The notes under the pieces were generated by a model. The model worked only from the letters and a program-made list of their open reading frames with translations, did no database searches and was not told the DNA's origin. From positions 1,054,001-1,118,000 of the forward strand of contig NZ_CP059900.1 in NCBI RefSeq assembly GCF_014126825.1: a DNA stretch of 64,000 nucleotides, given 5' to 3'. The stretch's first letter is position 1; every line of letters starts with the position of its first letter. The translations under genes and the position numbers were made by a program. Source of the stretch: Tomitella gaofuii. GTDB lineage: Bacteria; Actinomycetota; Actinomycetes; Mycobacteriales; Mycobacteriaceae. Shown one piece after another: positions 8,780 through 22,656 of the stretch.

Positions 8780-9309
8780 GTGAGGCTGCTGTTCGTGTGC
8801 ACGGGCAGCATCTGCCGCAGCCCCACCGCCGAGCGCCTGATGGTCGCCTGGGCGCGCGAACAGGGCATGGAGGGGCGGGTGACGGCTGCGAGCGCGGGCG
8901 TCCGCGCGTTGGTGGGCTCGGGAATGGAGCCGCGGGCCGCGGCGGTGCTGGAGTCGCTGGGCGGCTCGGCGCTGGGATTCGAGTCACGCCGGCTCACGCC
9001 CACGCTGGGGCAGGCCGATCTGGTCATCACCATGACACAGGCGCAGCGCGAGGCGGTGATGCGGCTGTGCCGCGGCGGTTCCGCGGCACGTTCACACTGC
9101 GGGAGGCCGCGCACTTTGCGCGCCTGGGCACCCGTGGCGCCGCGAGTCTCGTCGAGGCACGGGTGCACGAGGGTAGGCCGAGAGGGCTCGACTTCGCCGA
9201 TCCGATGGGCGGCGCCGATGCAGCCTTCGTGCGGGTGGCCGAGGAGATCCGCGATGCGCTGCCCGCGCTGCTGGAGACGGTGTCGGCCCGGGCCGGTGGT
9301 CGGGCGTGA
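8780..9309 (+). CDS. Low-molecular-weight protein tyrosine phosphatase, one frameshift
   Basis: Cytoplasmic phosphotyrosine phosphatase. The P-loop CTGSICRSPTAER (C-x5-R-S) sits at residues 7-19 and the acid loop is DFADPMGG near the C-terminus. The sequence changes frame near 9067: MRLC continues as PRRFRGTFTLREAAHFARLG if one C is added, a -1 error in a GC-rich stretch. The GTG at 8780 is 8 nt after the preceding stop. Phosphatases of this type (Wzb-like) often control exopolysaccharide assembly, and the polysaccharide genes begin just downstream, so a role there is possible but unproven. Confidence 0.8.
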
Positions 9310-9373
9310 CACCGCCGTGCGCCGGGGTGAGCCCAGTCGCGGGCTCCGCTAGGAGTGTGGGTCGGTATTAGCG

Positions 9374-9407
9374 AGTCGAGCCCGGCCTCACGTGGCCGGG
9401 CTCGACT
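9374..9407. terminator. Hairpin between the phosphatase and the polysaccharide genes
   Basis: Perfect 14-bp arms (9374-9387 and 9394-9407) around a 6-nt loop. No T-run follows, so it may be a factor-assisted terminator or the scar of a rearrangement: the next gene lacks its 5' part. Confidence 0.6.
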
Positions 9408-10226
9408 GTGTGCGTCCCGGGCTTCGCGATTTCTGTGGCGGTGTGCCCGCTCTGCCATCCCGGACGTTCAACCGGTCGACGACGCCGGGCAGGCCGCCTG
9501 ACACACCGGTGCGCCACTCAGCCGGCGGCCACGCCCGCCAGGCCGGCAACGCCGACCACGCCGTGGAGTTTGCGCAGGCGTCTGGGCAAAGGGTACGCGC
9601 TGCTGGCTGGCTTCAAGGCCTGCACCAGCGACATCATCGTCATGATGGACGCCGACGGCTCGATGACGCCTAGCGAGATCCGGGCGTTCGTCTCGGCGCT
9701 CGAGGCGGGCGCCGACCTGGTCAAGGGCTCCCGGTTCCTGCAGGGCGGGGGCAGCGCCGACCTCACCCCGGTGCGCATGCTGGGCAACTCGATGCTCACC
9801 TACCTGGTGCGCGCGTCGTTCGGCGGCCGGTACTCAGACCTCTGCTACGGCTACATGGCGTTTTGGCGCGAGCTGCTGCCGCTTTTCGACGCCGACGTGG
9901 CCGGCTTCGAGGTGGAGACCTTCCTCAGCGTCCGCGCGCTCACGGCCGGGCTGCGCGTGGTGGAGGTGGCCTCGTATGAGGGGCAGCGGATCAGCGGCGA
10001 GAGCAATCTGCGCACGATGCGCGACGGCTTCCGCGTGCTCGGCGCCATTGCCCGCGAGCGGGTGCGTGTGCAGCGCTACCGCAAGAGCACCGGCCCGGGG
10101 CACCCCGAGATCGTCGTGCACGTGCCCCGTCCCGGCGAGGCCGCACTCGTCCCCGCGACTCGTGCAGCCGCCCCGCCGATGGCGGTGGGGGCGGCGGTCG
10201 CCGCAGTGGCGGACGGTGCGCGATGA
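9408..10226 (+). pseudogene. GT2 glycosyltransferase missing its N-terminal part
   Basis: Homology to the dolichyl-phosphate-mannose-synthase type of GT2 begins only at about 9573, with GKGYALLAGFKACTSDIIVMMDADGS: the DAD metal-binding motif is present, then SEIRAFVSALEAGADLVKGSRF and a typical GT2 C-terminus ending in a disordered Pro/Ala tail. The expected first strand (a VSVVIPAxNE-like motif) and about 80 residues before the DAD region are absent; instead the frame reads through Arg-rich sequence that looks non-coding. Either a deletion removed the 5' end or the assembly collapsed here. The stop overlaps the next ATG, so this was the first gene of the polysaccharide operon. It would transfer a sugar from a nucleotide donor, probably to a lipid carrier, if intact. 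Confidence 0.6.
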
Positions 10227-12326
10227 TCGTCTCGGTGGTGGTCTGCACACACGCGGACGCCCGGCTCCCGCTGCTGCGCGACGCGCTCGCCTCCTTGCGC
10301 TCGCAGACCCGCCCGCCCGACGAGGTGATCGTCGTCGTAGATCACAATCCGGCCCTTTTCGCGCGCGTGGCGGAGGAGAGTGCCGGCATCACAGTGATCG
10401 CGTCCGACGATCCGCCCGGGCTCTCGGGCGCGCGCAACGCGGGCACAGCGGCCGCGTCGGGGGCTGTGGTGGCCTACCTGGACGACGACGCAGTCGCCGA
10501 GCCCGGCTGGCTGGCCGCCCTGGCCGCGCACTACGCCGACCCGTGGGTGCTCGGCGCCGGCGGGCATGCGGTGCCGCGGTGGGCGGGGCGCGCGCCCCGC
10601 GTGGTGGCCGGACGAGTTCGACTGGGTGGTGGGCTGCAGATACCGCGGCCAGCCGCGGCGCACGGCCCCGGTGCGCAACCTCATGGGCTGCAACATGTCG
10701 TTCCGCCGCTCCGCGGTCGAGGAGGCGGGCGGGTTCGACGCGGGGCTCGGGCGCACCGCGGCCGGCGCCGCGGGCTGCGAGGAGACCGAGCTGTGCATCC
10801 GCATCGCGGCGGCCCGGCCCGGCGGGGTGTTCCTGCTCGACCCGGCCGCGCGCGTCCACCACTACGTGCCGCGCGAGCGGGCGACGGCCGCGTACTTCCG
10901 GCGCCGTTGCCTGGCGGAGGGGGCGTCGAAGGCCGGCGTCGCGCAGCGCACGGGCGCGGCGGCGGCGCTGCGCACCGAGCGCGCGTACGTGCGCCGCACG
11001 CTGCCGGTCGGGGTGGGGCGCAACCTCGCCCGGGCCGTGCGCGGCGAGGGGGCCGGGATCCTGCGCGCGGGGGCAATCGTCGCCGGCGCGGGTCTCACCG
11101 CGTACGGGTTCGCGGGCGCCCGGCTGGGCGCGCATCGCGTCCCGGCAACCGTGGCCGAGCCGATCCTGCCGTTGATCCTCGACGGTGCCGACGTGCCCGC
11201 CGTCCCCAGCGCCGACGGAGCAGGACACTACGGCCGGGCGCTGTGCCTGCTGCTCGACGACGGCATTCCCGTGGCCCGGCGAATCACCGAGCTCGACCGG
11301 GTCGACGCATCCCCGCCACGCGCAGCCCGGCCGCGCGCCGCAGGTCGGCGGCGCCCCGAGGCGACGGTGGTGATCGCCACCCATGACCGGCCCGCCGGCC
11401 TGGCCGAATGCGTGCTGTCGGTGTGGCGCGGCACCGCGGTGCCCGCGCGCATCGTCGTGGTCGACAACGCCCCGTCCGACGCCGCCGCCGAGCGCACCGT
11501 CGCCGCACTGGCCGGGGGCGGCTGCCCCGTGGACTACGTGCGTGAGGACCGCCCCGGCCTCGCGCTCGCGCACAATGCCGCGCTGCCGTTGATCGTCACG
11601 CCCGTGGCGGCGTTCACCGACGACGACGTGCTGGTACACGAGCGGTGGCTCGAGGCGCTGCTGGACGTGTTCGACGCCGATCCGTCGACGATGTGCGTCA
11701 CCGGGATGATCGCGCCGCGCGAGCTCGACACCCTGCCCCAGCAGTGGGTGGAGGCGCGGGCGGTATTCGACAAAGGCCTGCGGCGCACGGTTTTCGACCT
11801 GGACGGGCCGCGCCCCGGCGACCCGCTCTTCCCGCTCACCGCGGGCGCGTTCGGCTCGGGCGCCAGCATGGCCTTCCGCACCGGCTACCTACGCGCCGTG
11901 GGCGGCTTCGATCCGGCGCTGGGCGCCGGCACGGCAGCGATGGGCGGCGACGACCTGGCCGCCTTCTACGACGTGGTGCGCGGCGGGCATCGGCTCACCT
12001 ACGAGCCGTCCGCGATCGTGCTGCACCCGCACCACCGCGACTACGCGCAGCTGCGCCGCCAGGCCTACGGCTACGGCGTGGGCCTGGGCGCGTACCTCAC
12101 CCGGTGCGTGCTCGACGACCCGCGCACGCTGGCCGTGCTGGCGCGCAACGCCTCCGCCGCGGTGGCGCGGGTGTCCGGCGGCGACGCCGAGCCGGTGATC
12201 CCGGGGCTGCCGCCGTACCCCCGTGCGCTGGTGCGGGCGCAGCGCCGCGGCATGGCCGCGGGGCCGTACCTCTACCTGCGCAGCCGGCGGCGTACGGCGC
12301 GGGCGGCCCAGGAGGTGCGGGCATGA
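10223..12326 (+). CDS. Tandem two-domain GT2 glycosyltransferase, one frameshift
   Basis: Two GT2 catalytic modules in one chain of about 700 residues. Module 1 opens with MIVSVVVCTHADARLPLL and has GLSGARNAG and the metal motif YLDDDAVAEPGW. Module 2 opens with EATVVIATHDRPAGLAECV and has the metal motif AFTDDDVLVHERW and the acceptor-region GGDDLAAFYD. Near 10595 the frame shifts by +1: removing one C from the CCCC run gives GRAPAWWPDEFDWVVG, so the break is probably a sequencing error. Two sequential transfers by one protein are typical of polymerases or repeat-unit synthases. It is overlapped on both sides by ATGA junctions. No membrane segments. Donor and acceptor sugars are unknown. Confidence 0.8.
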
Positions 12327-13120
12327 GCGCCGTGATCCCGATCCTGCTCTACCACTCGGTGCGGCCCGTGCCGGCGGAGGGCTTTGAGCGCTTCACCATC
12401 GACCCCGGCCTGTTCGCCGAGCACCTCGACACCGTCACCGGCCTCGGCTTCACCGCATGCACTGTGGGCGCGCTCGCGGCGATGCTGCGGGCGGGCACCC
12501 CGCCGCCGCGGCGCACCGTCGTGATCACCTTCGACGACGGCTACGCCGACTTCGCCGAGTATGCGTGGCCCCGGCTGCGCGCCCGTGGCCTCACGGCCAC
12601 GATGTACGCGGTCGCGGGACACCTGGGCGGGCGCAGCGCCTGGATGGACGGGCAGGCGGGGGCGATGCGGATGCTGCCCGCCGCCGACCTGCGCGCGCTG
12701 TCCGGCGAGGGCCTGGAGATCGGCGCGCACAGCGTCAGCCACCCGCAGCTCGACTGCCTGCCGCTGGCCTGCGCTCGCGAGGAGATCCGCGACAGCCGCG
12801 CCATCCTCGAGGACGCGCTGTCCTGCGAGGTGACCACCTTTGCCTACCCGCACGGCTTTCACGACCGGAACGTGCGCCGCGCCGCCATCGACGCCGGGTA
12901 CACCTCGGCGGCTGCAGTACGCAACGCGCTGAGCCACACCGGCGACGACGTGTACCGGCTGGCGCGCATCACCATGGCCCCCGACGACGGTCCCGGCCGC
13001 ATCGCCGCGCTGCTCCGCGGCCGCGGGGCCCGCATCGCCGCCCCGCACGAGCGGATGCAGACCACCGTGTGGCGCGGCACGCGCCGCATCCGCAGCCGGC
13101 TGCGGGCGGTGCACGCATGA
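12323..13120 (+). CDS. Polysaccharide deacetylase (CE4)
   Basis: Removes acetyl groups from N- or O-acetylated sugars using a metal. 265 residues from the ATG at 12323 (ATGA overlap with the previous stop). NodB-fold motifs are complete: motif 1 TFDDGYADF with the two aspartates, motif 2 HSVSHPQL (H-x3-H metal ligands), and motif 3 FAYPHGFHD. The N-terminus PILLYHSVRP is typical of the PgaB/IcaB-like branch. No signal peptide is seen, so it would act inside the cell on a lipid-linked or nascent glycan unless exported another way. It sits between glycosyltransferase and transferase genes of the same operon. Confidence 0.88.
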   Translation: MSAVIPILLYHSVRPVPAEGFERFTIDPGLFAEHLDTVTGLGFTACTVGALAAMLRAGTPPPRRTVVITFDDGYADFAEYAWPRLRARGLTATMYAVAGHLGGRSAWMDGQAGAMRMLPAADLRALSGEGLEIGAHSVSHPQLDCLPLACAREEIRDSRAILEDALSCEVTTFAYPHGFHDRNVRRAAIDAGYTSAAAVRNALSHTGDDVYRLARITMAPDDGPGRIAALLRGRGARIAAPHERMQTTVWRGTRRIRSRLRAVHA

Positions 13121-14163
13121 CCGGCGTCGCGGTGACGATGCCGGCGCCGCGGGAACGCTGGCGCGGGATCGTCGCCGCCAGCGACACGGCCCTGCCCGAG
13201 CAGGTGCCTGAATGGGTGGACGCGGTGTGCGCCTCGAAGCGCTACACCGACCTAAGCCGGCTGTACGTGTTCGACGACGGCACCGAGGCGGTGCTGCCGC
13301 TGGTGCGCCGGCGCGGCCCGGCCGGGATCGGCGGCAGCCTGCAGTCCTTCCCGCCGGCGTGGGGGATCGGCGGGCTGCTCAGCGCGCGGGCGCTCTCGGC
13401 GCGGCAGGTGCGCGACGTGCTCGGCGACCTGCGCCGCCAGCGCGCGCAGCGGGTGTGGATTCGGCCGGACCCGGTGGCCGCGTCCGCGTGGCGGGCCGCC
13501 GCCGGTGCCGCGGGCGCGACGCTGGTGCCGCGCCGCGCGCACGTGCTCGAGCTGGCGCCGGGCCGTGACGCGGTGTGGGCGGGGCTCTCGCAGACGGGGC
13601 GGCGCAACGTGCGCCTGGCGCGTCGGTCCGGGGTGGAGGTGGTCTCGGCGCACTCGGGCGCGCTGCTCGACGAGTACTACGGGCTGTTCCTGTCCTCGGT
13701 GGACCGGTGGGCGGAGCACCAGCACGAGCCGCGCCCGCTCGCCCGCGCGCGGGCCCGCCGCCGCGACCCGCTCGCCAAGCTGGCGGCCATGGGCAAGCAT
13801 CTTGGCGAGGACTTCGTCGTCACGCTCTGCCGCGTGGACGGCGTCGCGGTGGCCGGGGTGGTCGTGCTCTACGGGCGTACGGCGCACGGCACCCGGGCGG
13901 CGATGGATCGCGAACGCCTGGGGCGTTCCCACGCCAGCGAGCTCGCCTGCTGGACCTCGATCGAGCTGGCCCTCGAGCGAGGCTGCACCGCCTTCCACAT
14001 GGGCGAGTCGGGCGGCTCGACGGAGCTGGCCCGGGCCAAGGAGAAGTTCGGCGCGCACCCTGTCGACTACGCAGAGGTGCGCCTTGAGCGGCTGCCCTGG
14101 ACGCGGGCCGACGGTGTACTGCGCGCCGGGGTCAAGCGTGTGATCGGATTCCGCGATGACTAG
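13117..14163 (+). CDS. FemAB/BioF2-like GNAT-fold transferase
   Basis: 348 residues from the ATG at 13117, overlapping the deacetylase stop. The fold and motifs resemble the FemAB-related family found in exopolysaccharide clusters: an N-terminal half with VLPLVRRRG and a C-terminal half with GLSQTGRRNVRLARRSGVEV, GVVVLYGRTAHGTRAAMDRE and the final AFHMGESGG region followed by AKEKFGAHPVDY. Such enzymes move an acyl or aminoacyl group onto a sugar or peptide. Next to a deacetylase it could re-acylate exposed amino groups; this is inference. No membrane segment. Confidence 0.75.
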   Translation: MTGVAVTMPAPRERWRGIVAASDTALPEQVPEWVDAVCASKRYTDLSRLYVFDDGTEAVLPLVRRRGPAGIGGSLQSFPPAWGIGGLLSARALSARQVRDVLGDLRRQRAQRVWIRPDPVAASAWRAAAGAAGATLVPRRAHVLELAPGRDAVWAGLSQTGRRNVRLARRSGVEVVSAHSGALLDEYYGLFLSSVDRWAEHQHEPRPLARARARRRDPLAKLAAMGKHLGEDFVVTLCRVDGVAVAGVVVLYGRTAHGTRAAMDRERLGRSHASELACWTSIELALERGCTAFHMGESGGSTELARAKEKFGAHPVDYAEVRLERLPWTRADGVLRAGVKRVIGFRDD

Positions 14164-15076
14164 CGGCCGGCGCCGGCCTGGTGGGAGCCCTCCGGCCACG
14201 CGCAAGGTCGTGGCTGCGGCGGCTGCCGCCGTGGTGCTCGCGCTGACGTCCGCGTGCACCGTCAACGTATCGCTGGGCCACGAGGGACGCGACGGCGCCG
14301 CCTCCGCCGCGTCCCCGACGGTGTCGCCGCGGCCCACCGCGCGGCCCGGGGGAGCGCACGCGTTCGACGAGCAGTTCGACGGCGCCCGCTTGGATATGTC
14401 GCGATGGAGCACCTGCTACTGGTGGCAGGAGGACGGCGGCTGCACGATCGCCTCGAACAACGAGCTGGAGTGGTACCGGCCGGAGCAGGTCTCGGTGCGC
14501 GGGGGCGCGCTGGTACTCACCGCCCAGCACCGCACCGTCAGCGGCGACGGCGACACCTTCCCGTATGTCTCGGGCGTGGTCACCACGGGTCCACCGAAGC
14601 ACGACGCCCCACCGAAATACACCTTCACCTACGGCACCGTCGAGGTCCGCTTCCAGATCCCGCGCGGTGCGGGCCTGTGGCAGGCGATCTGGCTGCTGCC
14701 GGCGAGCGAATCGTCGGTGCCCGAAATCGACATGATGGAGGCCGTGGGGCAGCTCCCGGGCGAGGCCAATATGTACTTCCACCCGGGCGACCGTGCACAG
14801 TCGGTGAGCGGGCAGACCGTGGCCCTGCCGGAAGGAGCCGACCTGTCGCAGACGTGGCACACCGTGCGGCTCGACTGGTCGCCCGGGCTGCTTGTGTACT
14901 CGCTGGACGGGGCGGAGGAGTGGCGGGTGACCGGCGATCAGGTCCCGAGCGAGCCGATGTACCTGCTGCTCAACCTTGCTGTGGGCGGCGTCTACGGCGG
15001 ACAACCCGACGCCTCGGCGTTTCCGGCCGAGTTTCTCGTCGACTCGGTACGCATCGAGCCTGCGGGGGAACAGTGA
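14156..15076 (+). CDS. Secreted GH16 glycoside hydrolase, lipoprotein
   Basis: 306 residues. The N-terminus has basic residues, a hydrophobic stretch and a lipobox ending LTSAC, so the mature protein should be tethered to the outer face of the membrane. A Ser/Pro/Thr linker precedes the jelly-roll domain. The GH16 catalytic signature E-I-D-M-M-E is intact at about residue 194 (nucleophile and acid/base glutamates). Flanking aromatics (WSTCYWW, LWQAIWLLP) line the glycan cleft. GH16 enzymes cut or transglycosylate beta-1,3/1,4-glucans and galactans; in a biosynthetic operon it probably trims or releases the polymer. Overlaps its neighbour by 8 nt. Confidence 0.88.
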   Translation: MTSGRRRPGGSPPATRKVVAAAAAAVVLALTSACTVNVSLGHEGRDGAASAASPTVSPRPTARPGGAHAFDEQFDGARLDMSRWSTCYWWQEDGGCTIASNNELEWYRPEQVSVRGGALVLTAQHRTVSGDGDTFPYVSGVVTTGPPKHDAPPKYTFTYGTVEVRFQIPRGAGLWQAIWLLPASESSVPEIDMMEAVGQLPGEANMYFHPGDRAQSVSGQTVALPEGADLSQTWHTVRLDWSPGLLVYSLDGAEEWRVTGDQVPSEPMYLLLNLAVGGVYGGQPDASAFPAEFLVDSVRIEPAGEQ

Positions 15077-17463
15077 CCCTCACGCGGCCGGAGGCCGCGG
15101 CACCGGGCCACGCGGCCGCTGGCGGTCCCCGCCGCGCCGGGCGCGCGCTGCGCGCCAACGCCGCCGCACTCATCATCAGCACCGGCGTCACCTCCGCCGC
15201 GGGTTTCGCCTTCTGGGCAATCGCTGCCCGGCTGCTGCCCACCCACGCGGTGGGAGTGGGCACAGCGCTGGTGTCGGCGATGACACTGCTCGCCAACCTC
15301 GCCACCCTGGGCCTGCGCAACGGCCTGGTGCGCTTCCTGCCCGTGGCCGGGGCCTCGTCGCGGCGGCTGATTGCGGGAGCCTACGCGGCGAGCGCGACGG
15401 CGGCGGTGCTCGCCGCGGCAGTGTTCCTCGCCGGGCAGCGCTGGTGGGCGCCGCAGCTGGCGTTCCTGCGCGACGGGGCGGCCACGGCCTGCGCCTTCAT
15501 CGCCGCAACCGCGGTGTGGGTGCTTTTCGTGCTGCAGGACCAGATCCTCATCGGTCTGCGCAGCAGCGTGTGGGTTCCGGTGGCCAACGCGCTGTACTCC
15601 GTGGCCAAGCTCGCCGCGGTGCCGCTGTTCGCGGCGTCGGCCACGTGGGCGGTGTTCGCGGCCACCACGCTGCCCGCTGCGGCGGCGGTGGCCGGGGTAT
15701 CGGTGCTGGTGCTCGCGCTCACGGCACGCCGCCGCGCCGCGGGGAGCGTCGCGGCTGGCGGTGGCGCGGAAGACGGGGAAGCCGCCCGCGGCGGCGTGGA
15801 GCCCGCGCGCTTCCCGCTGCGGCTGCTCGTGCGGTTCGCCGCCTACGACCAGGCCGCGTGGCTGGTGTGGATGGCCGTGCCCGAGGTGCTCACTCTGATC
15901 GCCCTCAACGTGCGCGGGGCCGACGCCAGCGCCTATTACTACATGGCCAACGCCATCGGGTATTCGCTGTACCTGGTCACCAGCAACATCGGCAGCGCGC
16001 TGATCGCGGAGTCGGCGCACGACCCGCTGCAGTCCGTCGCCCACGCGCGGCGGGCGCTGGGTTACTGTGTGGCGCTGGTGGTTCCGGCGGCGCTGTTCGG
16101 CACGGCAGTGGCGCCGCTGGTGCTGCGGGTGCTGGGCAACGACTACGAGGCTGGCGCCACCGGGGCGCTGCGGCTGATCCTGCTTTCGGCGATACCGCAG
16201 ATCGTCGTGGGCATCAGCGTGAGCACAGCGCGCGTGCGCGGCGACATGCGCACCGTCGTCGCCGTCTACGTCCTCATCGCCGCAATGATCTGGACAGGCA
16301 GCTGGTTCGCGCTCAGCGCCTGGGGCGTCACCGGCATCGGTGCGGCGGTGCTGGTGGCACAGTGCACGGCCGCCGCGCTGCTGCTTGCCACCGGAAAGAC
16401 CGGCCTGTTCGGCGACGCGGGCGGGCGAGCAGCGCTGGCCGGCGCGCCGCGCGCGTGGCGGCAGCGGCGTCTGGGTCGGGACGCGGCCGGCGGGCTGGGC
16501 GCCGCCCTGGCGGCGTGCGGGTTCGATGTGGGCGCCGCTGTGCGCCGCCTCGACGCGGAGTCGGACACCCTCGTGCTGGCCGTTGACGACGCCGGCGTGC
16601 CCGCGGTGCTCAAGCTCTCCACGTCCGCCGCCGCCGACCGCGGGCTGGGACGGCACGCCGAAACCGTCGCCCGCCTGCGTGCGTCGATCGACGCGGACGC
16701 GGCGGCGGTGCTGCCCACGGTCCGAACCATCGTGAGGGTGGAAGGCCGGACGGCGGTGTGCGAGACGCGGCTGCCGGGCCGGCCGTTCGACGCCGGTGCT
16801 GCCGCGTCCGCCGCGGAGGCGGCCGCCGCGTTCGCCGCGCTGGGCCGGGTGCAGCGGGGCACGGCGCGCGCGGTGCGCGTCGATGGTGAATGCCTCCGCC
16901 GGTGGGTCGACACGCCCCTAGACGTGCTGCGCGGGGCCGACGGCGCGCCGGGGGCGCTCGCGCTGGTGCGCGAGCGGCTGCGGGCGCCGCTCGACGGCGC
17001 CACCGTGGTGACCGCGCAGGCGCACGGCGATTTCTGGCCCGGCAACGTGCTGGCAGACGGCGCCGCGGTGACGGGGATCGTCGACTGGGAGAACGGCGAC
17101 CCCGACGCCCTGCCTGACTTGGACCCGGTGCACTGGTATCTGGCCACCCGGCCGGCCGAGCTGGGCGCGGCGGCGTGTGCGGCACTGAGAGATCCAGACG
17201 GGCTTCGCCGGTTCCTCGCCGATGCCGACGCACCGCGGCCCAACCCGGCCCTGCCGCTGGACGTGCTGGTGCTGCTGGCATGGTTGCAGCACGTGTCCAA
17301 CACCCGGCTGCGGGCCACCCGTAACGCCCCGGGCGCCGTGTGGCACCGGCGCAACGTGCGGCCGGTGCTGCAGCTCGTGGCCGGCGGCAGCGGTGGTGCG
17401 GTGCGGTTCGGTGCGGCGCCCGCCGGGACCGGTCGCGCGGAGACGGGGGGCGCGCGATGCTGA
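15073..17463 (+). CDS. Polysaccharide flippase fused to an APH-like kinase
   Basis: 796 residues from the GTG at 15073 (4-nt overlap). Residues 1 to about 440 are a multi-spanning PST/MATE-type flippase: repeated hydrophobic segments beginning LIISTGVTSAAGFAFWAIAARLLP, then GLRNGLVRFLP and later LRLILLSAIPQIVVGIS. After a short basic linker (about 465) comes a cytoplasmic aminoglycoside-phosphotransferase-like kinase: catalytic loop AHGDFWPGNVLAD at about 653-665 and metal motif GIVDWENGD about 10 residues later. The reading frame is unbroken across the junction. The flippase would move a lipid-linked glycan outward; the kinase could phosphorylate a sugar or the carrier. See findings. Confidence 0.85.
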   Translation: MTLTRPEAAAPGHAAAGGPRRAGRALRANAAALIISTGVTSAAGFAFWAIAARLLPTHAVGVGTALVSAMTLLANLATLGLRNGLVRFLPVAGASSRRLIAGAYAASATAAVLAAAVFLAGQRWWAPQLAFLRDGAATACAFIAATAVWVLFVLQDQILIGLRSSVWVPVANALYSVAKLAAVPLFAASATWAVFAATTLPAAAAVAGVSVLVLALTARRRAAGSVAAGGGAEDGEAARGGVEPARFPLRLLVRFAAYDQAAWLVWMAVPEVLTLIALNVRGADASAYYYMANAIGYSLYLVTSNIGSALIAESAHDPLQSVAHARRALGYCVALVVPAALFGTAVAPLVLRVLGNDYEAGATGALRLILLSAIPQIVVGISVSTARVRGDMRTVVAVYVLIAAMIWTGSWFALSAWGVTGIGAAVLVAQCTAAALLLATGKTGLFGDAGGRAALAGAPRAWRQRRLGRDAAGGLGAALAACGFDVGAAVRRLDAESDTLVLAVDDAGVPAVLKLSTSAAADRGLGRHAETVARLRASIDADAAAVLPTVRTIVRVEGRTAVCETRLPGRPFDAGAAASAAEAAAAFAALGRVQRGTARAVRVDGECLRRWVDTPLDVLRGADGAPGALALVRERLRAPLDGATVVTAQAHGDFWPGNVLADGAAVTGIVDWENGDPDALPDLDPVHWYLATRPAELGAAACAALRDPDGLRRFLADADAPRPNPALPLDVLVLLAWLQHVSNTRLRATRNAPGAVWHRRNVRPVLQLVAGGSGGAVRFGAAPAGTGRAETGGARC

Positions 17464-19289
17464 TGGCCGCCACGAGCCGGCGGGGCGCCGCACAACCCCC
17501 CGGCCCCGAGAGCACGCCCGGGCGCGCCGCCGCCGCGTTGCGCGCGCAGGCACGGCCGCTGCTGTGCCTGGCGGCTGCGGTGCTGTTGTGGTGCGTGGGC
17601 TTCGCCTGCGCGGGCGGGCCGCTGAGCATGGGCGGGCTGGGGCTGCTGAACCTGTTCGACATCGCCACCACGACGGGGCTGGCGCTCCTTCTGCTAGGCA
17701 CGCTGGCAAGTATTTTCGCGCGGCGCCCCGGCTGGGTGACGGGCACGCACATCGTGACCTATCTGGCGCTGGTGCACGGCACGCCGGCCGTGCTCTACGG
17801 CACGGTGCGCTACGCGTGGTCGTACAAGCACCTCGGCATCGTCGACTACATCCTGCGCAACGGGGCCGTCGACCCGCACATCGGCGTCAACCCGATCTAC
17901 CACAACTGGTCGGGCTTCTTCGCCGGCAGCGCATTGGTCTCGTCCGCGGGCGGCGTGCACGACGCCTTCACGCTGGCGCTGTGGGCGCCGCTGGGGTTCA
18001 ACCTGATGATCCTCGTGGTGCTGCGGTTCGTGCTGCGCGGACTCACCGACCGCGAGGACCTGGCCTGGCTGGCGGTGCTGTGGTTCTTCGTCATCACCTG
18101 GGTGGGGCAGGACTACTTCTCGCCCCAGGCCATGGCGTTCGTTCTGTACCTGGCAGTCATAGGCACGCTGCTGCGGCGCGACATGCCCGCAGCAGTGCGG
18201 CTGGGCCTGTTCACGGTGACGGTGGCGGCGCTGGCGGTGACCCACCAGATCACGCTGCTGGTGCTGGTGTCGTCGGTGACGGCGCTCGTGATGTTCCGCG
18301 TGGTGCGCGGGTGGTACCTGCCACTGATCGCGATCGTGCTGTGCGGGGGATGGGCGCTGACGTTCGCGCGCGGCTACACGGTCGCCAACGTTAGCGAGCT
18401 CATCGCGGGTTTCGGCCGGCCGGTGGCCAACGCCGATGCCACCTTCGCCAAGTCCGCGGGGGCGAGCGGAGCCGAGGCGCTGGTGTCATGGGGCGACCGG
18501 TCGACGGTGGCGCTCGCCGTGCTGATCGCACTGATCGGTGCGTGGCTGGCACGGCGGCGCGGCCACCCGCAGCGTGCCGCCCTGGTGCTCATGGCCGCTC
18601 CCGTCGCCACCATGGTGCAGACGTCCTTCGGCGGCGAGGCGCTGTTGAGGGTGTATCTGTTCGCGGCGCCGTTCATCGCCTACCTCGCGGCGATGGCCTG
18701 CCTGCCCCCGGCCCGGGCCTCCGTGGAGGCCGGGGCGGGGGGGTCCGGCGGGATCCACCGTCGGTCGGGGCCGCCCGGTTCCGCCGTCCCGGGATTCCCG
18801 TATCGCCGCTTCGTGGCGGCGGCCGCCGCGGTGGCGCTGGTGGTGCCGGGCTTCTTCCTGGGCTACTACGGCAAGGAGCGCGGCAACTACTTCACGCAGG
18901 ACGAGGTGGCGGCGTCGGCATGGGTCGACCGGACCGCGCCGCCCGGGTCGCTGCTGGTCACTGGGAGCACCAACTATCCGGGCCAGTTCCTCTACTACGA
19001 CAAGTTCGCCTACGTGGCGATCGATCGGGAGCCTGGGCCCTCGCGCGAGAACGTCGTCACGCATCCCGTGGGCGTGCTGCACGACTGGTTGACCAATCCG
19101 CAGTTCGCGAGGTCCTACCTGCTGATCACTCGGTCGCAGGAGATCGGTTCCGAGATGGGGCGCACGCTGCCGCCGGGCACGCTGGCGGATGTGGAACGGG
19201 AACTGCGGCGCTCGCCGCAGTTCACGGTGGTCTATGAGAATCCCGACGCGGTGGTGTTCGCGCCGTCCCAGGCGGGGGAGGGGTCATGA
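17457..19289 (+). CDS. Large multi-spanning membrane protein, GT-C or polymerase-like
   Basis: 610 residues from the ATG at 17457 (7-nt overlap); an ATG at 17463 in the same frame is an alternative. About 11-12 hydrophobic segments run from AQARPLLCLAAAVLLWCVGF to VAAAAAVALVVPGFFLGYYG, followed by a soluble C-terminal domain of about 130 residues (FTQDEVAASAWVDRTAPPGSLL onward). That layout, a membrane bundle followed by an external domain, fits a GT-C-type glycosyltransferase or a Wzy-like polymerase; no family motif proves it. The external loop before segment 4 has several aromatics (YKHLGIVDYILRNG, NPIYHNWSG). Probably polymerises or extends the exported glycan. Confidence 0.7.
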   Translation: MLMAATSRRGAAQPPGPESTPGRAAAALRAQARPLLCLAAAVLLWCVGFACAGGPLSMGGLGLLNLFDIATTTGLALLLLGTLASIFARRPGWVTGTHIVTYLALVHGTPAVLYGTVRYAWSYKHLGIVDYILRNGAVDPHIGVNPIYHNWSGFFAGSALVSSAGGVHDAFTLALWAPLGFNLMILVVLRFVLRGLTDREDLAWLAVLWFFVITWVGQDYFSPQAMAFVLYLAVIGTLLRRDMPAAVRLGLFTVTVAALAVTHQITLLVLVSSVTALVMFRVVRGWYLPLIAIVLCGGWALTFARGYTVANVSELIAGFGRPVANADATFAKSAGASGAEALVSWGDRSTVALAVLIALIGAWLARRRGHPQRAALVLMAAPVATMVQTSFGGEALLRVYLFAAPFIAYLAAMACLPPARASVEAGAGGSGGIHRRSGPPGSAVPGFPYRRFVAAAAAVALVVPGFFLGYYGKERGNYFTQDEVAASAWVDRTAPPGSLLVTGSTNYPGQFLYYDKFAYVAIDREPGPSRENVVTHPVGVLHDWLTNPQFARSYLLITRSQEIGSEMGRTLPPGTLADVERELRRSPQFTVVYENPDAVVFAPSQAGEGS

Positions 19290-19759
19290 ACGATCGGGGC
19301 GGGGCGCGGCCCGTCGCCACGGCGGCGTCGGCGGCGTCGGCCGCGGCGGCCGCGGCCACCGCGGTGGTGATGGTGGCGCTGGTGGTGTATCCACCGCTGC
19401 GGCTCGGCGCGGCGGCGCTGTTCTGCCTGCTGGCGCCGGGCAGCGGGTGGGCCTGGCGGCTTGCCCGCACCGGCCGTATCCGGCCGGCCGACCGACTCGC
19501 CGTGGCGCTCGTGCTCAGCGTGTGCGCGACGACCGCCGTCGCGACTGCGATGGTGGTCAGCGGGCTGTGGTCGGTGGCGGGCGGGATCGCCGCGCTCAGC
19601 GTCGTCACTGCGGGGGGCTTTGCATCGTGGCCGCAGTTTTGGCGCGGAATGCAGGGGCGGCTACTTCGGGCGAGGACGCCACGGCGGCGCCTCGTGCTGC
19701 GGCGGGCGCGATCCGGCGGCTGTCGCGGGGCCGACGTATCGACGAGTGAGCCGCGATGA
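19286..19759 (+). CDS. Small membrane protein closing the polysaccharide operon
   Basis: 157 residues from the ATG at 19286, with an ATGA overlap. An Ala-rich segment and three or four hydrophobic helices (ATAVVMVALVVYPPL, LGAAALFCLLAPGSG, LAVALVLSVCATTAVATAMVV, VAGGIAALSVVTAGG) precede an Arg-rich cytoplasmic tail. It resembles the N-terminal half of larger actinobacterial membrane proteins of unknown function, so it may be shortened. Coupling to the preceding gene suggests it works with it. Confidence 0.65.
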   Translation: MNDRGGARPVATAASAASAAAAAATAVVMVALVVYPPLRLGAAALFCLLAPGSGWAWRLARTGRIRPADRLAVALVLSVCATTAVATAMVVSGLWSVAGGIAALSVVTAGGFASWPQFWRGMQGRLLRARTPRRRLVLRRARSGGCRGADVSTSEPR

Positions 19760-21485: not shown

Positions 21486-22656
21486 ATGACCGGCCAGTCC
21501 CAGCCCAGCCCAGCCCAGCCCCGGCCTCCGTGGCCGCAGGCGCTCGCGACCATCGACCACGACGCCCTCGCCCACAACGTCGGTGTGATCCGCGAACGCG
21601 CCGGGGACACCCCGGTCATGGCCGTCGTCAAGGCCGACGGCTACGGGCACGGCGGCGCGGAGGTGGCCCGCACGATGCTGGCGGAGGGGGTGCGCGAACT
21701 GGGCGTGTGCACACTCTCCGAGGCGCTGGGCCTGCGCGCCGCGGGCATCACCGCGCCGATCCTGTCGTGGCTGCACACCCACGACGCCGACTTCGCGCCC
21801 GCGATCGCAGCGGGGGTGGACCTGGCGGTGTCCACCCGTCGGCACCTCGCCGCCGTGGTGGACGGCGCGCGCCGTGCCGGAGCGCCGGCGGTGCTGACGG
21901 TCAAGGTGGACACCGGGCTCAACCGCAACGGCGTGAACGCGGACGACTGGCCGGGGCTGCTCGAGGCGGTCGTCGCAGCGCAGCGGGCCGGCGACGTCCG
22001 GCTGCGCGGCATCTTCACGCACTTCGCGCGCGCCGACGAGCCCGATCACCCCGTCATCGACATCCAGGCTGCGCGGCTCAAGGAGATGGTCGACCAGGCG
22101 TGCGCCGTCGGACTGGAACCGGAGGTCGTGCACGCGGCCAACTCCGCCGCCACCCTCACCCGCCCGGACCTGCGCTTCGACATGGTCCGGCCGGGGATCG
22201 CGCTCTACGGGCTCTCGCCGATGCCCGAGGTGTCCGACTTCGGGCTGCGCCCGGTGATGCGGCTCTCCGGCCGGTTCGTCAACGTCAAGGTGGGTGCGCG
22301 AGGGGGAGGGGGTGTCCTACGGGCACACCTGGACCGCCCCCCACGACACCACCGTCGGAGTACTGCCGCTGGGCTACGCCGACGGCATCCCGCGCACACT
22401 CAGCGGACGGTTCGATGTGACGGTGGACGGCGAGCGGCGGCCCGCCGTCGGACGGGTATGCATGGACCAGTTCGTGGTGGACCTGGGGCCGGGCTCGGGC
22501 GTGGAGGTCGGCGACGAGGCGGTGATCTTCGGCGACCCGCGCCGCGGCGAGCCGCACGCCCAGGAATGGGCCGACGCGCTCGGTACCATCCACTACGAGG
22601 TGGTCACCGGGGTGAAGGGACGCGTGCAGCGCCGCTACGTCGGGAGCCGGGGCTGA
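21486..22656 (+). CDS. alr: Alanine racemase, one frameshift
   Basis: PLP enzyme making D-alanine for peptidoglycan. The PLP-lysine motif [11 protein letters not shown] is at about residue 39 from the ATG at 21486, and substrate-region HTGLNRNG-like sequence ([10 protein letters not shown]), FTHFARAD and [10 protein letters not shown] are all present. After FVNVKVG the frame shifts by +1 near 22291; taking one G out of GGG gives [17 protein letters not shown], containing the catalytic tyrosine loop, then GYADGIPR and [11 protein letters not shown] to the end. Loss of a wall-essential enzyme is unlikely, so an error is favoured. The stop overlaps the tsaE start (TGATG). Equivalent to Rv3423c. 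Confidence 0.9.

Follow-up and report, generated by a model that had tools for sequence, protein, structure and literature searches.

A flippase joined in one reading frame to an APH-type kinase in Tomitella gaofuii, with a possible role in saccharide export

The window analysed here is a stretch of 64,000 nucleotides from Tomitella gaofuii (GCF_014126825.1, NZ_CP059900.1, positions 1,054,001-1,118,000, forward strand). It contains an open reading frame (ORF) that encodes a flippase domain followed by an APH-type kinase domain. As read from the sequence, this pairing is real, repeated in other genomes, and apparently undescribed, and it falls within a recognisable kind of pathway. The gene is divided as follows:

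15073..17463, + strand: fused flippase-kinase gene, 796 residues, GTG start (supported by the frame, third-position G+C content, and fused homologues)
15145..16425, + strand: flippase domain of the MOP/Wzx-PST type, residues ~25-451 (weak PF01943 match, relatives, 11 hydrophobic segments)
16426..16512, + strand: variable linker, 29 codons, 34.5% identity to homologue L033 and likewise to L034
16513..17385, + strand: APH-type kinase domain, residues ~481-771, with K514, H651, D653, N658, and D671

One frame, two domains

The frame at 15073-17463 runs from GTG to stop through 796 translated codons, with no internal stop; its coordinates are exactly those given in a preliminary description of the locus, and the two motifs named there for the kinase part, HGDFWPGN and IVDWENGD, are both present. 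The G+C content of third codon positions (GC3) lies between 0.82 and 0.95 in all 25 segments (60 codons, step 30) along the gene, the junction at 16333-16602 included. A tblastn search with L033 gives a single-frame match across positions 15169-17391. By eye, no evident Shine-Dalgarno sequence precedes any of the four in-frame GTG codons at 16528-16597. An assembly frame error that fused two genes might be suspected, given that neighbouring genes at 9573 and ~10593 are frame-broken relative to L033. However, eight further loci from independent genomes carry both parts in the same order in a single ORF, and the junction is therefore not a frame error; together with the open frame and the even GC3, this rules out the artefact with near certainty.

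The flippase part is probably a divergent MOP/Wzx-type protein that exports a lipid-linked saccharide. Its own match to PF01943 (E 0.003, 17.5 bits) falls under the cut-off of 28.2, and its probable identity comes from its relatives: seven of 18 aligned flippases match PF01943 at E<=0.01 (best 2.5e-9). A Kyte-Doolittle window finds 11 hydrophobic segments, where the MOP type has about 12 transmembrane helices. Profile comparison found no relatives in the PDB. Membership in the MurJ/MviN family was considered and dropped, a Pfam scan of the 796 residues at E<=0.05 having given PF01943 alone. Five records of a plasmid collection match the query, all inside residues 34-422 and none over more than 80% of its length.

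The kinase part is also placed through its family. Although the window's own domain has no match to PF01636 even at E<=1, the other 24 of the 25 aligned kinases do match (best 7.4e-22). (The alignment covers 25 of 29 loci with a strong kinase; L156, L157, L169, and L170 are absent from it.) A search of solved structures with the kinase profile returns APH VIII (4.2e-10), along with capreomycin phosphotransferase and macrolide kinases. PF19974 (TCAD9), tried as the family, matches 11 of the 25 members, more weakly than APH.

The catalytic residues of the APH type are all present in the window kinase: the lysine; the HxDxxxxN motif; and the downstream aspartate. H651, N658, and D671 are found in 25 of 25 aligned kinases, D653 in 24 (Ser in L067), and K514 as Lys in 22 (Arg in L052, L133, and L136); H651, D653, N658, and D671 are invariant among nine fusions. 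Thus neither of the two weaknesses foreseen in the preliminary description, a frame error at the junction and loss of catalytic residues among homologues, came to light. A pseudokinase was set aside as the default reading, these residues being kept. A role in antibiotic resistance was judged unlikely from the cluster context, and an APH-family gene found in a cluster of this kind is not necessarily a resistance gene.

Ratios of nonsynonymous to synonymous change (dN/dS; simple Nei-Gojobori estimates with dS of 0.77-0.94, partly saturated) are, between L033 and L034, ~0.16 in the flippase and ~0.34 in the kinase; between the window and these two loci they are ~0.33-0.34 and ~0.58-0.60, respectively. 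By these estimates both domains are under constraint, the kinase less so.

The operon and its relatives

The fused gene lies within a compact row of genes, each of which, between 10223 and 19759, shares 4-8 bases with the next:

9408..10226, + strand: DPM/AglJ-like family 2 glycosyltransferase (GT2), likely a polyprenyl-phosphate-sugar synthase; homology to L033 from 9573 only, and the start looks frame-broken
10223..12326, + strand: tandem GT2, AglG/MftF-like; compared with L033 and L034, the reading frame shifts near 10593-10600
12323..13120, + strand: polysaccharide deacetylase of the NodB type, carrying the motifs TFDDG and HSVSH; a signal peptide is not evident by eye
13117..14163, + strand: FemAB-like/Acetyltransf_6 acyltransferase (Pfam, homologues)
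14156..15076, + strand: endo-glycanase of glycoside hydrolase family 16 (GH16), with EIDMME as its ExDxxE motif and an N-terminus that looks hydrophobic by eye; likely exported
17457..19289, + strand: polytopic membrane protein, 610 residues, GT-C/polymerase-like by position and anatomy only
19286..19759, + strand: small protein, 157 residues, no Pfam match; weak likeness (45 bits) to L034:14670-15071

These genes suggest an operon that would make a lipid-linked extracellular polysaccharide. No member (0 of 10) of the family of the 610-residue protein has a Pfam match, and there is no PDB sequence match. An initiating phosphoglycosyl transferase was absent from the nine window proteins scanned with Pfam (none was sought elsewhere in the genome), the DPM/AglJ-like glycosyltransferase being there instead. 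At least two neighbour genes, those for the DPM-like and tandem enzymes, are frame-broken in the assembly, and by eye the same seems true of alr near 22330 and of a gene for a low-molecular-weight tyrosine phosphatase near 8797-9309. The broken frames at 8797-12326 and near 22330 are either assembly indels or real lesions. The window cluster lies upstream of alr and tsaE, whereas in L033 and L034 (genus g4) it lies near genes read as encoding an FHA-domain protein and a PP2C phosphatase (all by eye). From this difference in flanking genes, the cluster would seem to travel as a cassette.

The same architecture recurs in other genomes. Among 151 genomes of the window's family (the window genome, G000, included), 38 match some part of the fused protein, and five hold both parts in one frame: G000, G138, G101, G047, and G084. 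The four other same-genus genomes in this draw (G013, G041, G060, and G077) have no match. Four more fused loci are known: L052, from an uncultured Chloroflexi; L053, from a Nocardiopsaceae metagenome-assembled genome (MAG); L055, from a Devosia MAG; and L169, which turned up when the phylum of L052 was searched and whose ORF runs off the contig start. This makes nine fused loci, window included, in three phyla (Actinomycetota, Chloroflexota, and that of Devosia).

A scan of genome contigs for the kinase yielded 117 loci, of which the best 80 were taken. Strong kinases are found in 29 loci, and 22 of these have a related flippase in the same stretch: the nine fusions, and 13 split loci with separate kinase and flippase genes, in Streptomyces, Micromonospora, Pseudonocardia, and others. 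(L155 and L064, identical in layout, are apparently one Streptomyces aureus region, counted once.) Together the 22 loci hold a DPM-like glycosyltransferase in 15, GT2 in 18, deacetylase in 18, FemAB-like protein in 16, GH16 in 14, and GT-C-like protein in 17, counts that are depressed by short contigs. Control loci with weak kinase similarity from the contig scan (62; L068 and L071-L131; mean length 16.3 kb) have no flippase, deacetylase, FemAB, GH16, or GT-C-like gene; a DPM-like match occurs in one, GT2 in one, an epimerase-like match in two, and a nonribosomal peptide synthetase (NRPS)-like match in seven. This control set is rough, coming mostly from other bacterial groups than the clusters, and 37 of the 62 reach the kinase profile at E 1e-8. 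The weaker kinases L061, L062, L069, L070, and L137-L140 (L061 and L137 apparently being one record) have no cluster genes except an epimerase-like match in three.

The kinase is rare. Its tallies are lower bounds, with at most five or nine first-look candidates scored per genome in the family searches: at least 11 of 397 genomes in the order-level draw (E 1e-10; seven strong, four weak); at least nine of 394 in the class-level draw, which overlaps the former (E 1e-15; seven strong, two weak); at least one of 249 in the order of the Devosia MAG, namely that MAG; and at least 12 of 251 in the phylum of L052, three of them strong.

Flippase and kinase tree distances agree over the 22 loci (Mantel r 0.63, with none of 5000 permutations as high). 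The fused and split states require three changes on either tree; counting well-supported branches only, the minimum is two for the flippase tree and one for the kinase tree. The fusion may have had a single origin followed by losses. Long branches are seen for L055 on both trees and for L156 on the flippase tree.

Other genomes vary what follows the flippase. One chain of 1740 residues in L031 comprises flippase, kinase, GT2, and GT-C-like membrane protein; the called ORF of L055, 1346 residues, has the kinase in the middle, between flippase and GT-C-like part; and a single ORF in L169 comprises flippase, a nucleotidyltransferase/P-loop (NTP_transf_5) part, and kinase. In L060 (8577-9785) and L134 (8927-10255), a gene for NTP_transf_5 plus P-loop kinase directly precedes the APH kinase gene.

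Selection by flippase gave 30 loci, with the kinase in three (the window, G594, and G721). Seven others, seen with ~1.5 kb flanks, show none, and the remaining 20 (L202-L221) were viewed in stretches of 13-20 kb. Ten of these 20 have flippase and GT-C-like part in one ORF (~1240-1430 residues) with no APH kinase in the stretch, the parts being separated by a linker of ~80-270 residues or, in L202, by a GT2. Eight of the ten belong to group g122, taken to be Streptomyces. Such an ORF amounts to a Wzx-Wzy-like fusion, mostly of Streptomyces-type genomes.

On this comparison, the flippase tail is a modular docking place for kinase, GT2, nucleotidyltransferase/P-loop, or GT-C-like parts, according to genome. 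Because close relatives are commonly kinase-free, the base machine would be flippase plus GT-C-like protein, with the kinase a module added at the flippase C-terminal end.

Several neighbours of related flippases were also seen. A related flippase reads into an NRPS-like adenylation/carrier/thioesterase protein in an ORF of 1293 residues (L039:4855-8736, by eye); in L035, a flippase has a separate 836-residue gene nearby. Related proteins of ~890-925 residues are encoded directly after the fused gene in L032 (10919-13591) and L053 (4680-7361) and just before the flippase gene in L056 (12276-15053), with a Hydrolase_3 (HAD-type phosphatase) match in L053 and L056. These proteins are a possible phosphatase partner of the kinase.

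A proposed role, and the alternatives

We propose, tentatively and with somewhat less than even confidence, that the kinase adds phosphate to the lipid-linked saccharide on the cytosolic side, before it is flipped, so that decoration is coupled to export. The DPM/AglJ-like GT2 would load the first sugar onto polyprenyl phosphate, and the tandem GT2s would lengthen the saccharide; still in the cytosol, the deacetylase and FemAB-like acyltransferase would modify it. Anchored at the flippase's cytosolic C-terminus, the APH-type kinase would phosphorylate a hydroxyl of the lipid-linked saccharide. The flippase would then move the phosphorylated saccharide across to the outer face; the protein encoded by the next gene, a GT-C-like membrane protein, would polymerise or transfer it, and GH16 would trim it. 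Through the fusion, kinase and flippase, joined in some genomes by the GT-C-like protein, would stay in a single complex, and it is by keeping the parts together that decoration and export would be coupled. The kinase segment is most likely cytosolic, because in L031 it shares the segment with a GT2, and GT2 enzymes require a nucleotide sugar. Observed here are the fusion itself, the catalytic residues, the recurring gene set, and more than one switch between fusion and separate genes; we infer the substrate, timing, topology, and catalytic activity of the kinase in this scheme.

Several observations weigh against the scheme. The kinase is found in none of the 20 flippase-selected clusters seen in longer stretches, which makes it accessory and not needed for flipping in general. 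Seven of the 29 strong kinases have no flippase in the stretch available. In two of them (L037 and L132) the kinase directly adjoins the DPM-like glycosyltransferase, which fits phosphorylation of a precursor or carrier equally; L133 has GT2 and an NTP_transf_5-like match, L065 an epimerase-like match, and L057 a weak GT2 match, and L066 and L067 have none of the cluster genes. The fused member L052 has Arg in place of the ATP lysine; the kinase evolves faster than the flippase (window versus L033, ~0.58 versus ~0.33); and its solved relatives mostly phosphorylate free small molecules. The agreement between trees could come from plain co-inheritance of the cluster.

Alternatively, the kinase might make a soluble precursor (a sugar phosphate or phospho-alcohol) that is later activated and added, the fusion to the flippase serving merely as membrane anchor. 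The APH-fold sugar and choline kinases NahK, AmgK, and LicA act on free small molecules, and the solved-structure matches of the profile are small-molecule kinases. An NTP_transf_5/P-loop-like gene is found in eight of the 22 clusters, and its arrangement in L060, L134, and L169 is reminiscent of a kinase with a nucleotidyltransferase. However, the Pfam scan found no nucleotidyltransferase family among the nine window proteins, and the window, L033, and L034 stretches lack any NTP_transf_5-like match (in the latter two, this was the one nucleotidyltransferase family sought). Moreover, a soluble enzyme gives no clear reason for fusion to a flippase. We regard this explanation as rather unlikely.

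A regulatory domain is a less probable candidate. By analogy with the mycobacterial MviN pseudokinase and its partner FhaA, for which PMC11898655 describes a proposed regulatory role, the domain might sense or phosphorylate proteins, or might dock and gate the flippase. The Arg at the ATP lysine in L052 would fit, as would the close flippases that work without a kinase. The catalytic residues are nevertheless kept in nearly all members; the family is APH; and the partners are a biosynthetic cluster that recurs in three phyla.

Phosphorylation of the lipid carrier itself seems more doubtful still. A polyprenol kinase would replenish the carrier for the DPM-like glycosyltransferase, as the gene order of L037 and L132 might suggest. 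The polyprenol kinases known so far have other folds, though, and are integral membrane enzymes, and transfer from a polyprenyl-phosphate sugar gives back polyprenyl phosphate, so that such a kinase would be unnecessary.

Phosphorylation of the lipid-linked saccharide before flipping remains our preferred explanation. The coupling of export to phosphorylation, which the preliminary description had already suggested, best accounts for the fusions and gene clusters, but we still infer it, and the kinase-free clusters of close flippase relatives speak against it. A bolder version, which we consider unlikely, is a phosphate licence: the flippase would accept only a saccharide phosphorylated by its own tethered kinase, a mark of finished units before flipping, and nearly the whole path may be one polypeptide, as in L031.

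To our knowledge, it is not settled how polysaccharide flippases recognise a finished unit. With a kinase carried by the flippase itself, as seen in three phyla, one can ask directly if a chemical mark added in the cytosol gates flipping. If the proposal holds, phosphate should also occur in a family of little-known extracellular glycans. The chains in which flippase, kinase, GT2, and GT-C-like parts are fused speak for a single complex that carries out export, decoration, and polymerisation.

Comparison with known systems

The literature search, whose coverage of subscription journals was thin, turned up no paper on this gene set or on a flippase that carries an APH-type kinase. The earlier statement that no characterised protein with this pairing is known has to be qualified in view of MviN. 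Mycobacterial MviN (Rv3910), a lipid II flippase, carries a pseudokinase domain, and FhaA binds the phosphorylated domain (PMC11898655). As described there, MviN is like the window protein in being one polypeptide, from mycobacteria, that joins a flippase for a lipid-linked saccharide to a kinase-like domain. In contrast, the window protein matches PF01943 only, has an APH-type kinase with catalytic residues, and is encoded in a polysaccharide operon.

WbdD of Escherichia coli O9a, a chain-terminating kinase/methyltransferase, phosphorylates the end of a polyprenol-linked glycan (PMC3482155). A kinase that acts on a polyprenol-linked glycan for export is what we propose, by analogy, for the window. 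WbdD differs in its eukaryotic-type kinase, its methyltransferase domain, and its ABC-transporter pathway, whereas the window has an APH kinase joined to a MOP-type flippase; its 796 residues contain no methyltransferase match (Pfam, E<=0.05).

The wps-1 cluster of Actinoplanes missouriensis, compared by description, places a gene for a protein-kinase-like protein (IPR011009), WpsI, inside a Wzx/Wzy-type cluster. Deletion of wpsI alone is reported to leave the sporangia squashed, much as when the cluster is deleted (PMC13390465), a result given without complementation. WpsI is a separate protein, and wps-1 further differs in its sulfotransferases, GT26, Wzz, and O-antigen ligase-like Wzy (PMC13390465). 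Another lead, the Streptomyces coelicolor teichoic-acid/polydiglycosylphosphate locus (SCO2578, SCO2589-2592), was dropped as the same cluster on its descriptions: in PMC3937824 and PMC6629963, SCO2589/2590 are teichoic-acid (CDP-glycerol, that is, cytidine diphosphate-glycerol) genes, and SCO2591 is an amidase.

Closer at hand are the APH family and the Streptomyces-type clusters. The aligned kinases belong with PF01636 by 24 matches in 25; what sets them apart is a flippase fused or clustered with the kinase in 22 of the 29 strong loci. The Streptomyces-type flippase/GT-C-like clusters share with the window the same flippase and GT-C-like families, DPM-like glycosyltransferase, GT2, and deacetylase, but the APH kinase is present in none of the 20, and a linker or, in L202, a GT2 takes its place.

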